A DNA stretch of 64,000 bases from positions 1,798,001 to 1,862,000 of the forward strand of contig NZ_VFMQ01000001.1 in NCBI RefSeq assembly GCF_006715175.1. Direction: 5' to 3'. Source of the DNA: Curtobacterium citreum (lineage in GTDB: Bacteria; Actinomycetota; Actinomycetes; Actinomycetales; Microbacteriaceae). The translations under genes were made by a program, and so were the position numbers. Below the pieces are notes generated by a model, which was not told where the DNA came from, made no database searches, and saw nothing but the letters and a program-made list of their open reading frames with translations. Below, in pieces: positions 1 to 4,487 of the stretch; position 1 is the first letter of the stretch, and each line of letters begins with the position of its first letter.

Positions 1-1121
1 CGAACGGCGTCGTCTTCGTGCTCGGCTCGAACGGCAAGTCCACGACGACGCACATGATCTCGGACATCGTCCGGGCGCACGGGCTCCGCGTGTTCACGAA
101 CCCCTCCGGCGCGAACCTGCCGCAGGGCATCGCCTCCGCGCTCCTGTCCGAGGTGTCGCTGACCGGCCGGCTGAAGGCCGACATCGGCATCCTCGAGGTC
201 GACGAGGCGTTCGCGGTCGAGCTCGCCGGCATCCTGTCGCCGTCCACGGTGACGATGCTCAACGTCCAGGTCGACCAGCTCTACCGGTTCTTCGAGACCG
301 AGCGCGTCGCGACGATGATGCTCGACACGGCGGCGCTGTCCTCCGCGAACGTCATCACCAACCGTGACGACCAGTTCCTCGACGCCTACGCGGCGCGGAC
401 CGGGCAGCGGGTGCTGCGCTTCGGTGCGAGCACCGAGGTGGTCGCCGCCGCGCCGAACGGCCTGCAGAACGCCGACGACTTCGACCGGACCGACGGCGAG
501 CCGAACCCGGCGGAGTCCGAGGTCGTCGCGAACACCGGCGACGGTGCGACGATCCGCTTCGAGGGCACCGACATCCCGGTGCGGCTGCCCGCGCGTGGCC
601 TGCACTACGCGGTCGACGCGGCCGCAGCGACCGCGACGGCGAGTGCTGCGCTCGGAGCGCAGTTCCGTCCGGACGCCGTGACGAAGGCCTTCGGCACGAT
701 GAAGCCCGCGTACGGCCGTGGCGAACGCCTGCCGATCGCCGGGGAGTCCGCCGAGTTCACGATGTTCAAGAACGCCGCGAGCCTGCAGCTCAACCTCGAC
801 GCCCTGCCCGCGCACCCGGAACAGGTGCTCATGGCGATCGACGAGGGCACGCCGGACATCTCCTGGATCTACGACATCGACTTCTCGAACCTCGACCACG
901 TCGACGTCGTGTCCGGCGACAAGGCGTGGCAGATCGCGATCGCGCTCGAGCACGCCGGAGTCCGCATCGGCCGGGTCGAGCCCGACGTCGAGGCCGCGAT
1001 CAAGCTCATGCAGAGCCTCGGTGCGACGACGAGTGGCACGAAGAACTTCATCGTCAACTACGAGATCATGATGGTCGCCCGCAAGGCCCTGGGCCACGGC
1101 GACATGGAGAAGACGGCATGA
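1..1121 (+). CDS. MurT-like Mur ligase family protein, divergent, 5' end outside window
   Basis: The reading frame is open from base 3, so the N-terminus lies outside the window. A Mur-ligase P-loop GSNGKS sits at nt 24-41, followed by a NPSGANLPQGI stretch, a LEVDEA block, and near the C-terminus DISWIYDIDF. From memory these line up with NEGANMAAGI, IEIDEG and DTSWIYDADF of Staphylococcus aureus MurT. MurT activates the alpha-carboxyl of D-Glu in lipid II, and GatD supplies ammonia. Two MurT hallmarks are absent: the visible part has no cysteine at all, so the Cys4 zinc ribbon is missing, and the usual RDQxDRxGE block reads VDQLYRFFE. The stop overlaps the next gene (ATGA). It is probably a paralogue with altered chemistry rather than canonical murT. 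Confidence 0.82.
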   Translation, partial: NGVVFVLGSNGKSTTTHMISDIVRAHGLRVFTNPSGANLPQGIASALLSEVSLTGRLKADIGILEVDEAFAVELAGILSPSTVTMLNVQVDQLYRFFETERVATMMLDTAALSSANVITNRDDQFLDAYAARTGQRVLRFGASTEVVAAAPNGLQNADDFDRTDGEPNPAESEVVANTGDGATIRFEGTDIPVRLPARGLHYAVDAAAATATASAALGAQFRPDAVTKAFGTMKPAYGRGERLPIAGESAEFTMFKNAASLQLNLDALPAHPEQVLMAIDEGTPDISWIYDIDFSNLDHVDVVSGDKAWQIAIALEHAGVRIGRVEPDVEAAIKLMQSLGATTSGTKNFIVNYEIMMVARKALGHGDMEKTA

Positions 1122-1891
1122 CCGCCGACCGGTTGACCATCCTGCACGTGTACCCGCGCCAGATGGGCGTCTCGGGTGACCGCGGCAACGTCGCGGCGCT
1201 CGTGCGTCGAGCCGCGGCCGCCGGCCTGGACACCGAGGTCGTCGAGTACGCCCCGGGCGGTGCCCTGCCCACGGCGGCGGACGTCGTCGTGGTCGGCAAC
1301 GGCCCGCTGAGCGCCATGCGGTCGCTCGGCGCGGACGTCGCACGCATCGGCGCCCCGCTCCGTGACCTCGCCGGGTCCGGCGTCCCGGTCGTCGCCGTCG
1401 GCGGTGGCTTCGACCTCGCGACGAACGAGGTGGTCCCGACCGAGGGCGCTCCGGTGGCCGGCTTCGGCGTCTTCGACGCCCGCGCGGTCCGCGGCGCGGA
1501 GCGGCGCGTCAACTACTTCGTGCTCGAGACGCGCTACCCGCTGCTCGACGGGGCCGCGACCCGCGTCGCGGGGTTCGAGGACCACGCGACCCGCATCGAG
1601 CTCGCCGCGGCGGTGACGCCCTTCGCGGACGTCGTCTCGGGCGGCGGCAACCAGGCCGGATCGCCGGTCGAGGGCGCGATCGTCGGGACGTCGTTCGGCA
1701 CGCACACCCAGGGGCCGATCCTGCCCCTCAACCCGCAGCTGACCGACGCCGTGCTCGCTGCCGCGACTGCCCGTGTCGGACGGGAGTACACGCCGGACGC
1801 GGCGCAGACCGAGACGGTCGACCGGTACGCGCGCGAAGCGCGCGCGACCATCGACCGGTACGTCGACAAGGCGTTCAAGCGCATCGCCTGA
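1118..1891 (+). CDS. GatD-like class I glutamine amidotransferase-fold protein lacking catalytic Cys/His
   Basis: A 257-residue protein that starts in a 4-nt ATGA overlap with the MurT-like gene. It aligns by eye along its whole length with S. aureus GatD (LTILHVYP at the start, GFEDH in the middle, GPILPLNPQ near the end). In GatD the nucleophile lies in ICGGYQ and the catalytic His in GTYLHGP. Here those stretches read VGGGFD (Gly95 in place of Cys) and GTHTQGP (Gln198 in place of His). The glutaminase reaction should therefore be lost while the fold and partner surface may remain. The pair is translationally coupled and probably forms one complex. It could be a structural subunit or an amino-acid-binding subunit of a ligase; this is inference. 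Confidence 0.85.
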   Translation: MTADRLTILHVYPRQMGVSGDRGNVAALVRRAAAAGLDTEVVEYAPGGALPTAADVVVVGNGPLSAMRSLGADVARIGAPLRDLAGSGVPVVAVGGGFDLATNEVVPTEGAPVAGFGVFDARAVRGAERRVNYFVLETRYPLLDGAATRVAGFEDHATRIELAAAVTPFADVVSGGGNQAGSPVEGAIVGTSFGTHTQGPILPLNPQLTDAVLAAATARVGREYTPDAAQTETVDRYAREARATIDRYVDKAFKRIA

Positions 1892-1965: not shown

Positions 1966-2190
1966 CTACTTCGATTCGTAGAGTCGGCTGCTCTCGTCGT
2001 GCCACTCGATCGCGGTGGCCGCGAGCTTGTCCTTGAACTCCGCGCCGTGGTGCGCGCAGAAGTACAGCTCGCCGCTCGCCATGGTGGCGCGGATGTAGGC
2101 CTGCGCTCCGCAGCTGTCGCAACGGTCCACCGCGGTGAGCTGGTGGCTGGTGGTCTCGTCGATGGAGAGGTCGTGCACGGTCTGGGTCAT
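1966..2190 (-). CDS. Small zinc-ribbon-like protein (DUF7455-type)
   Basis: A 74-residue protein with a CDSCG knuckle and a second FCAHHG half-site, so it probably binds a zinc ion. This type of short protein is common next to sigma-factor or topoisomerase genes in actinobacteria and its function is unknown. The ATG at 2190 was chosen because GAGGAG lies 7 nt upstream; an in-frame GTG at 2205 would overlap that ribosome-binding site. It is convergent with the gatD-like gene and divergent from parE. Confidence 0.72.
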   Translation of the reverse strand: MTQTVHDLSIDETTSHQLTAVDRCDSCGAQAYIRATMASGELYFCAHHGAEFKDKLAATAIEWHDESSRLYESK

Positions 2191-2369: not shown

Positions 2370-4487
2370 GTGAGCTCCGACTACTCCGCGCGCCATCTCT
2401 CCGTCCTCGAGGGGCTCGAGGCGGTCCGGAAGCGACCGGGCATGTACATCGGCTCGACGGACTCCCGCGGCCTCATGCACTGCCTGTGGGAGATCATCGA
2501 CAACTCGGTCGACGAAGCCCTCGCCGGGCACGGCGACGAGATCGGCGTCGTGCTGCACGCCGACGGATCGGTCGAGGTCCGGGACACCGCGCGCGGCATC
2601 CCCGTGGACGTCGAACCGAAGACCGGTCTGACCGGGGTCGAGGTCGTGTTCACGAAGCTGCACGCCGGCGGCAAGTTCGGATCGGGGTCGTACGCGGCTT
2701 CCGGTGGTCTGCACGGTGTCGGTGCCTCGGTCGTCAACGCCCTGTCCGAGCGACTCGACGTCGAGGTCGACCGCGGTGGCAAGACGTACGCCATGTCCTT
2801 CCACCGTGGCGAGCCGGGCACCTTCGCGGGCGACGGCCCGGACGCGCCGTTCGCACCGTTCACCTCGGGCAGCGAGCTCCGCGTGGTCGGCAAGGTCAAG
2901 CGTGGGGTCACCGGCTCGCGCATCCGGTACTGGGCGGATCGGCAGATCTTCACGCCCGACGCGAAGTTCAGCACGTCCGACCTGGTGAGTCGGGCGCGCC
3001 AGACCGCGTTCCTCGTCCCCGGGCTCGGCATCACCATCACCGACGAGCGCGCCGCGTCGATCGAGGCCGCTGCCGCGCGGGCCGAGGCGACGGGCACGAC
3101 CGTCGCCGCCGGTCCGGTGGTCGAGCGCTTCCGGTACGAGGGCGGCATCAGCGAGTTCGTCGAACACCTCGCGGTCGACACGGCCGTGACGGACGTCTGG
3201 CGGATCCAGGGCACCGGGACCTTCACCGAGACCGTCCCGATGCTCGACGACAAGGGGCACATGGTGTCCACCTCGGTCGAGCGCGCGTGCGAGGTCGACA
3301 TCGCGCTCCGGTGGGGCAGCGGTTACGAGACGGTCGAGCGCAGCTTCGTGAACATCATCGCGACGCCGAAGGGCGGGACGCACCTGACCGGCTTCGAGTC
3401 CGGGCTCGTGAAGGCCGTGCGCACCCAGGTCGAGGCCAATGCGCGCAAGCTCAAGGTCGGTCAGGACAAGCTCGAGAAGGACGACGTGCTGGCGGGCCTG
3501 ACGGCCGTGCTGACCGTCCGCCTGCCGGAGCCGCAGTTCGAGGGCCAGACGAAGGAGGTCCTCGGCACCCCGGCGGTGCGGAAGATCGTCGACCAGGTCG
3601 TCGCGAAGCGCCTGACCGAGATCCTCACCTCGACGCAGCGGACCGAGAAGGCGCAGGCGGCGACCCTGCTCGAGAAGGTCGTCGCCGAGATGAAGACCCG
3701 CATCTCCGCCCGCGCGCACAAGGAGACCCAGCGCCGGAAGAACGCGCTCGAGAACTCCTCGTTGCCGACGAAGCTCGCCGACTGCCGCAAGCAGGACGCT
3801 GAGGGCACCGAGCTGTTCATCGTGGAGGGCGACTCCGCGCTCGGCACCGCCAAGCTCGCCCGGAACAGCGAGTACCAGGCGCTCTTGCCGATCCGGGGCA
3901 AGATCCTCAACGTGCAGAAGGCGTCCGTGTCGGACATGCTGTCGAACGCCGAGTGCGCCTCGATCATCCAGGTCATCGGCGCCGGGTCCGGCCGCTCGTT
4001 CGAGATCGACCAGGCCCGCTACGGCAAGGTCATCATCATGTCGGACGCCGACGTCGACGGCGCGCACATCCGCACGCTGCTGCTGACGCTGTTCTTCCGC
4101 TACATGCGGCCGATGATCGAGCAGGGCCGGGTGTTCGCCGCCGTGCCGCCGCTGCACCGGGTCGTCGTGGTGAACCGCGGCAAGCCGAACGACACGCTCT
4201 ACACGTACTCCGAGGCCGAGCTGCAGGCCGTGCTGAAGAAGCTCGCGAAGCAGGGCAAGAAGTACCAGGAGCCGATCCAGCGGTACAAGGGCCTGGGGGA
4301 GATGGACGCGGACCAGCTCGCCGAGACGACGATGGACCGCACGCACCGGACGCTCCGGCGCGTGAACGTCACCGATGCCGAGGGCGCCGCGAAGGTCTTC
4401 GAGCTGCTGATGGGCAACGACGTGGCCCCGCGCAAGGAGTTCATCCTCGCGGGCGAGGGCCTGGACCGCGACCGTATCGACGCGTAG
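2370..4487 (+). CDS. parE: DNA topoisomerase IV subunit B (ParE / type IIA topoisomerase ATPase subunit)
   Basis: A 705-residue ATPase subunit of a type IIA topoisomerase, which with ParC decatenates and relaxes DNA. Visible motifs are the GHKL ATPase blocks EIIDNSVDEAL, DTARGIPVD and GGLHGVGASVVNALS, the TOPRIM motif EGDSALGTAK, and the metal-binding DADVDGAHIRTLL. The GTG start gives VSSDYSARHLSVLEGLEAV, matching the family N-terminus; longer in-frame extensions look non-coding. ParE rather than GyrB is preferred because it is paired with a ParC-type partner away from dnaA and gyrA. parC lies convergent across a strong terminator, so the two subunits are transcribed separately. Confidence 0.92.
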   Translation: MSSDYSARHLSVLEGLEAVRKRPGMYIGSTDSRGLMHCLWEIIDNSVDEALAGHGDEIGVVLHADGSVEVRDTARGIPVDVEPKTGLTGVEVVFTKLHAGGKFGSGSYAASGGLHGVGASVVNALSERLDVEVDRGGKTYAMSFHRGEPGTFAGDGPDAPFAPFTSGSELRVVGKVKRGVTGSRIRYWADRQIFTPDAKFSTSDLVSRARQTAFLVPGLGITITDERAASIEAAAARAEATGTTVAAGPVVERFRYEGGISEFVEHLAVDTAVTDVWRIQGTGTFTETVPMLDDKGHMVSTSVERACEVDIALRWGSGYETVERSFVNIIATPKGGTHLTGFESGLVKAVRTQVEANARKLKVGQDKLEKDDVLAGLTAVLTVRLPEPQFEGQTKEVLGTPAVRKIVDQVVAKRLTEILTSTQRTEKAQAATLLEKVVAEMKTRISARAHKETQRRKNALENSSLPTKLADCRKQDAEGTELFIVEGDSALGTAKLARNSEYQALLPIRGKILNVQKASVSDMLSNAECASIIQVIGAGSGRSFEIDQARYGKVIIMSDADVDGAHIRTLLLTLFFRYMRPMIEQGRVFAAVPPLHRVVVVNRGKPNDTLYTYSEAELQAVLKKLAKQGKKYQEPIQRYKGLGEMDADQLAETTMDRTHRTLRRVNVTDAEGAAKVFELLMGNDVAPRKEFILAGEGLDRDRIDA

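Follow-up and report, generated by a model that had tools for sequence, protein, structure and literature searches.

The window analysed here, the whole 64,000-nucleotide stretch of the Curtobacterium citreum contig, opens inside a murT-like gene whose probable ATG precedes the first base by 139 bases and which overlaps the following gatD-like gene by ATGA. Among proteins from named organisms, the nearest matches came from Curtobacterium, at up to 88% identity. The MurT-like protein passed the Pfam cut-offs for Mur_ligase_M (42.2 bits, cut-off 24) and MurT_C (34.2 bits, cut-off 25), and the product of the adjoining gene passed that for GATase_3 (40.9 bits, cut-off 27) and gave a structure model with a mean pLDDT of 95.1. 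This arrangement resembles the MurT/GatD lipid II isoglutaminyl synthase of S. aureus and S. pneumoniae, which is likewise a two-gene operon combining Mur ligase middle and MurT_C domains with a GATase_3 partner. However, both proteins of the window fall far under the NCBIfam equivalog cut-offs, with 91.1 of 800 bits for MurT and 77.7 of 450 (Staphylococcus model) or 52.3 of 400 bits for GatD. The sigA gene, just upstream of the window, and the topoisomerase B subunit gene border the interval that holds the pair (Table 1).

Table 1. Features of the MurT-like/GatD-like pair and its neighbours, in positions of the window.
Feature	Position	Strand	Evidence
MurT-like gene, 3' 89%	1..1121	+	Pfam PF08245 (Mur_ligase_M) and PF08353 (MurT_C)
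MurT P-loop GSNGKSTTT	24..50	+	sequence; most positions fully or almost fully conserved in alignment A1
MurT E112-V-D114-E115, Mg/ATP site (S. aureus E108; S. pneumoniae E110, D112, E113)	195..206	+	alignment
MurT Val137 at gate-arginine position (S. pneumoniae R135)	270..272	+	alignment; gate role PMC6085368
MurT Asp332, equivalent of S. aureus D349	855..857	+	alignment; role PMC6113224
GatD-like gene, glutaminase without nucleophile	1118..1891	+	257 aa, no Cys; alignment, Pfam, structure model
GatD Ser19 at channel-blocking tyrosine position (S. aureus Y17, S. pneumoniae Y30)	1172..1174	+	alignment; role PMC6085368
GatD Gly95 at nucleophile Cys94 position	1400..1402	+	alignment with solved S. 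aureus GatD
GatD Arg129, glutamine-capturing arginine (S. aureus R128)	1502..1504	+	alignment; role PMC6085368
GatD Gln198 at catalytic His189 position	1709..1711	+	alignment with solved S. aureus GatD
Small DUF7455 gene, between sigA and the topoisomerase gene	1968..2190	-	Pfam PF24254
Type II topoisomerase B subunit (gyrB/parE family), bounding the exchanged interval on the right	2370..4487	+	Pfam, synteny

In the alignment with the solved GatD proteins of S. aureus and S. pneumoniae, Gly95 matched the position of the catalytic Cys (Cys94 in S. aureus) and Gln198 that of the His (His189), just as the initial annotation had read them. It had also found no cysteine in the visible part of the MurT-like protein, and this extends to the full protein of 419 amino acids and to its GatD-like partner, which have none. 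The MurT-like protein does carry the features of a Mur-type amide ligase, i.e. the P-loop, the Glu and Asp of the Mg/ATP site, the acceptor Asn and the hinge Arg.

The pair was compared with relatives from 249 sampled genomes of the family Microbacteriaceae, of which 80 loci, picked to cover genera and second copies and thus not a random set, were analyzed together with the window's own. Both genes were present in all 81 loci, with a gap of at most 60 bases in 80 of them. Two loci hold pairs with zinc ribbon and Cys/His (pair group A) and 13 hold pairs without the ribbon and with Cys/His (pair group B). The largest group, C, which includes the window's pair and two fast-evolving members (F), has neither ribbon nor Cys (56 loci); nine loci (group D) have the ribbon and His or Gln at the Cys position, and a single divergent dead locus with ribbon makes up group E. 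Clade C was monophyletic with a support of 99, and of 100 in a second tree of 25 outside rows and 18 C rows. Clade D apparently formed a clade of its own, on a long branch of the tree. In this clade (L100-L107, L114) a second form of dead GatD, with the plug tyrosine changed to His, is found beside a zinc-ribbon MurT. With C and D apparently distinct, the sequences suggest that the glutaminase died at least twice.

Outside the family, 87 genomes of the same order had a MurT_C match, and in the 50 pairs examined from these every GatD had both Cys and His. Loss of the Cys is thus a property of 56/56 clade-C GatDs vs. 0/50 pairs outside the family. On the aligned sequences, the general loss in the dead clade is that of the Cys and not of the His, since 68% of the clade-C GatDs still have the catalytic His. 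The missing zinc ribbon, which had been taken as a sign of altered function, turned out to be no such sign because 39 of the 50 MurTs from other families lack the two CxxC motifs although their GatD has Cys and His, and ribbon loss was rejected as a mark of a new function.

Several further positions matter for how ammonia reaches MurT. In S. aureus, the GatD changes C94G and C94S abolished amidation, and D349 of MurT was proposed as the third residue of the glutaminase triad, according to PMC6113224. In the S. pneumoniae structure, as described in PMC6085368, the route between the GatD site and MurT is blocked by a GatD tyrosine, and its gate is shut by an arginine of MurT. GatD also has an oxyanion Gly-Gly-Gly and a glutamine-capturing arginine, and the acceptor carboxylate is presumably contacted by an asparagine of MurT. 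We compared these positions between a Cys/His-bearing set (66 GatDs including one from S. aureus; 65 MurTs), the 56 clade-C and the nine clade-D sequences. The plug tyrosine was present in 66/66 Cys/His GatDs and in none of clade C (0/56) or clade D (0/9), while the gate arginine was present in 65/65 MurTs of Cys/His pairs, 0/56 of clade C and 9/9 of clade D. The second oxyanion glycine was found in 100% of the Cys/His GatDs, in 9% of clade C and in none of clade D.

The glutamine-capturing arginine, on the other hand, was kept in 66/66, 54/56 and 9/9 sequences, respectively, and the Mg/ATP-site residues E, D and E of MurT in 65/65, 56/56 and 9/9. The equivalents of N85 (the acceptor asparagine), E110, D112, D136 and R140 were likewise found in 56/56 clade-C MurTs and in 100% of all three sets, and an Asp equivalent to D349 is present in 56/56 clade-C MurTs. 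The window's pair thus shares with the isoglutaminyl synthase the P-loop, Mg residues, acceptor Asn, D349 equivalent and capture Arg, and differs in lacking the Cys nucleophile, the channel tyrosine and the gate arginine and in its changed oxyanion Gly-Gly-Gly. From these counts the source of ammonia is therefore lost, in clade C together with the gate, whereas the joining machinery and an arginine that binds an amino acid remain.

As to a second, canonical pair, the C. citreum genome (one contig, 3.61 Mb) gave no MurT_C match besides the window's pair, but six sampled genomes hold a Cys/His pair of group B together with a dead pair of group C. Pairs of C and D occur together in one genome, G155, which has 5% contamination. 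A Cys/His pair alone is found in about 22 of the 249 genomes, a number taken from E-values and partly checked on the sequences; genomes with a best E of about 1e-86 to 1e-131 (e.g. G013, G024, G035, G062, G166, G225, G245, G247) were counted by E-value alone, which makes the clade-C and the Cys/His-only numbers approximate. Presence of MurT was scored with the clade-C profile A1, as compared to 194/249 genomes by a search with the single protein and 175/249 by PF08353. By this profile, 47/249 family genomes have no MurT, defined as a best E above 1e-15, the level where other Mur ligases match. The dead pair had been expected in every group B species, and the proposal that all group B Microbacteriaceae carry it was rejected on these 47 genomes, 38 of which have a CofE-like protein instead.

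The position of the genes on the chromosome connects these two sets of genomes. The MurT/GatD pair was located between sigA and the topoisomerase B gene in 14/14 type C/F intervals examined, and clade-D pairs were at the same place in the five genomes examined, while the Cys/His loci of groups A and B were elsewhere in 7/7 cases read with 9-13 kb of context. A pair of racemase genes was found in 7/14 type C/F intervals (domains Pfam-checked on three) and an ATP-grasp gene in 2/14; the other seven have no racemase, and none is present in the window's own interval. The window's pair thus shares its interval with the racemases and alternative ligases of its relatives. Three genomes with a Cys/His pair only (G012, G064, G164) had no ligase or racemase modules in the interval.

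In the 18 MurT-less genomes whose interval was examined (L147-L166), a 232-aa CofE-like protein (PF01996) was encoded there in 15, an ATP-grasp protein (PF14397) in 13 and alanine-racemase-like genes in nine, the latter recognised by eye and Pfam-checked on L157 and L155. Interval L160 also encodes EctB (diaminobutyrate transaminase) above the profile cut-off, and interval L166 a protein that resembles it by appearance. Two intervals (L163, L165) were practically empty, and a third (L164) had none of the genes just listed. With these contents, the interval of the MurT-less relatives is a candidate group B wall island.

CofE, the coenzyme F420-0:gamma-glutamyl ligase, joins an amino acid to a carboxylate. 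The replacing protein likewise belongs to PF01996, a family that is not related to the Mur ligases, and the example from L154 is far from reaching the CofE equivalog cut-off (29.5 of 180.65 bits). Strong profile matches (E below 1e-100) were obtained in 38/249 genomes, all of them among the 47 without MurT, and in none of the 202 MurT-bearing family genomes; the gene was inside the sigA-topoisomerase interval in 15/15 CofE genomes examined. Background matches (E 1e-6 to 1e-3) occurred in 31 further genomes. Three MurT-bearing genomes (G049, G112, G134) encode divergent CofE-like proteins (E 1e-38 to 1e-47). In G112, which belongs to genus g49 (L306), divergent CofE-like, MurT-like and dead GatD-like genes and a racemase pair are all located between sigA and the topoisomerase gene. 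Nine of the 47 MurT-less genomes had no strong CofE-like match (G017, G045, G047, G057, G108, G110, G159, G202, G240), and about 31/249 genomes have neither a dead MurT/GatD pair nor the CofE-like module.

The Fisher value for the exclusion of MurT and CofE-like ligase, 1e-36, is overstated since the genomes are not independent, and a better measure is therefore given by ten genera (g7, g9, g44, g53, g54, g68, g70, g73, g77, g78) with MurT in some members and the CofE-like protein in others. Strong ATP-grasp matches followed the CofE genomes (34/38) and were also present in 6/12 clade-D genomes and two others. On this distribution of sequences, the MurT/dead GatD pair and the CofE-like ligase apparently replace each other. 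A non-equivalence of the two, with the exclusion arising from two locus forms that serve different purposes, is improbable. It would fit the divergent forms of both in genus g49, in G112 within one interval, and the ATP-grasp gene that goes with CofE and with only two MurT genomes outside clade D, but the ten mixed genera argue against it.

The CofE-like protein also occurs outside the family. Named genomes were scanned with the CofE-like profile, and the best 80 of 496 confirmed loci were mostly from Microbacterium, with others from Salinibacterium, Gulosibacter and further genera and two from Erysipelothrix. In the 36 named CofE genomes from these best 80, no MurT match rose above the level of other Mur ligases (best E 6e-12), and the two Erysipelothrix genomes had no MurT. 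Their CofE-like proteins were 65 and 67% identical, PF01996 was confirmed by Pfam for both, and among the 120 matches listed the closest named relatives outside the genus were from Microbacteriaceae. In a family-level sample of 145 genomes around E. tonsillarum, 20 had a clear CofE-like match (E below 1e-40). The presence of the gene in Erysipelothrix looks like the outcome of gene transfer from one group B lineage to another. In this member of the Bacillota the gene (L227:6001-6693, L235:6001-6693) sits among unrelated neighbours. A contig titled Stenotrophomonas maltophilia (L206) encodes a Microbacterium-type CofE-like protein, probably by contamination of the assembly.

Group B walls have long been used as a marker in taxonomy, and Curtobacterium has D-Orn cross-bridges. 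The wall types of a handful of named species could be set beside their ligases. In the table of PMC4062643 the bridge of E. rhusiopathiae is D-Glu-Gly-L-Lys, and Microbacterium elymi, a named CofE genome without MurT, has a wall with Gly 32.4, Orn 26.8, Ala 25.4 and Glu 15.4%, i.e. about two Gly, by the composition given in PMC9998209. The clade-C MurT profile proteins include those of Subtercola vilae and Frondihabitans cladoniiphilus (placed by their MurTs). Of these, S. vilae is listed in PMC5945732 as B2gamma with Ala:Gly:Glu:DAB of 1.1:1.0:0.04:1.7 and Glu replaced by hydroxy-Glu, and Frondihabitans as a B2beta genus with D-Orn. Rhodoluna (B2beta, about one Gly) was left out of the clade-C points. 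These few species agree with a link of CofE to a glycine-first bridge and of MurT-C to a single diamino acid, without settling it. The glycine rule for CofE is tentative because Holdemania filiformis, also B1delta, has D-Glu-L-Asp-L-Lys with L-Asp first in the same table (PMC4062643).

Taken together, the residues, the clade, the locus and the mutual replacement that we observed lead us to infer a reaction and the identity of its amino acid: MurT and its dead GatD would form a Mur-type amide ligase that joins the bridge amino acid to the D-Glu alpha-carboxyl in group B peptidoglycan (probability roughly 0.7, from sequence data). In the lipid-linked precursor, MurT would activate the D-Glu alpha-carboxyl, a role also ascribed to its canonical relatives. 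GatD would have given up ammonia production and the tyrosine plug while retaining the capture arginine, and with plug and MurT gate arginine gone an amino acid instead of ammonia could reach the activated carboxyl. The dead GatD would supply a D-diamino acid, perhaps bound through its carboxylate to Arg129, and the amine of this amino acid would attack. In Curtobacterium, given its bridge type, the amino acid would be D-ornithine and the product D-Glu(alpha)-D-Orn, the cross-bridge, and in relatives the CofE-like ligase would carry out the corresponding first step, perhaps with glycine.

This candidate redirection of MurT chemistry from ammonia to an amino acid had been put forward in the initial annotation; its zinc-ribbon argument and its universality did not stand, but it is supported by the loss of plug and gate with the synthetase residues intact, the locus shared with racemases and the exchange with a CofE-like ligase, including that in Erysipelothrix. 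Counting against the bridge ligase are the nine genomes with neither module and the Cys/His-only genomes of the family sample, the window's own interval without a racemase, the frequent retention of the His in clade C, clade D, which lost Cys and plug yet retains the gate arginine, and genus g49 with its divergent forms of both modules.

It is possible, though unlikely, that the pair works in the same wall pathway on another carboxyl, e.g. that of the bridge diamino acid, or in joining a second residue. The contents of the locus point to the pathway and not to the acceptor, and the ATP-grasp genes of CofE and clade-D genomes hint at two or more ligation steps being encoded at this place. Still, the asparagine for the acceptor carboxylate is kept throughout clade C, and the canonical MurT acts on the D-Glu alpha-carboxyl, from which group B bridges branch. 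We consider it doubtful in similar measure, and slightly more so, that the pair is an ammonia-dependent amidotransferase in which GatD is a mere scaffold and MurT makes D-isoglutamine from free ammonium. In S. aureus ammonia can be used as nitrogen source at pH 8.5 with GatD still needed, as PMC6085368 states with reference to earlier work, and the synthetase residues are kept. This explanation leaves the complete loss of plug and gate in clade C, the adjoining racemase genes and the exchange with CofE-like genes without a reason, and in six sampled genomes a Cys/His pair persists next to the dead pair. A decayed, non-catalytic pair kept for regulation or structure would suit a GatD without nucleophile and the patchy occurrence in the family, but is very improbable with Mg, acceptor and hinge residues invariant in clade-C MurTs and both genes together at every locus.

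Going beyond the bridge ligase itself, the sigA-topoisomerase interval may be an exchangeable group B wall-bridge island, with three separately evolved ligases for one step: MurT-C with its dead GatD, MurT-D with a GatD that died independently, and the CofE-like protein that Erysipelothrix also has. In the first two, the ammonia-producing subunit would have become an amino-acid feeder. We hold the chances for and against this wider proposal to be about equal.

Related solutions are found among other enzymes. The Mur ligases MurC-F also couple amino acids or peptides to a carboxylate via an acyl phosphate, but use UDP precursors as substrates, have an N-terminal UDP domain and lack a GatD partner. 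In beta-lactam synthetase and in the ammonia-type carbamoyl phosphate synthetase I, glutamine amidotransferases have likewise lost the Cys and taken another nucleophile, though in other folds and pathways. The MurT-like genes without GatD presented in a 2025 archaeal MurT pangenome paper are a different case (PMC11915815). Among the top-ranked open-licence PubMed Central papers found, no title or abstract named the enzyme that places the bridge residue on D-Glu, and by title and abstract the open-licence literature held no description of MurT/dead GatD or CofE-like genes in a group B bridge role. Our results suggest that the database names 'lipid II isoglutaminyl synthase' and 'coenzyme F420-0:L-glutamate ligase' mislead for the MurT-C and CofE-like proteins. 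If the bridge-ligase function is true, an amidotransferase would have turned into an amino-acid ligase through loss of the glutaminase and opening of the channel, and two or three testable genes would be named for the start of group B cross-bridges.
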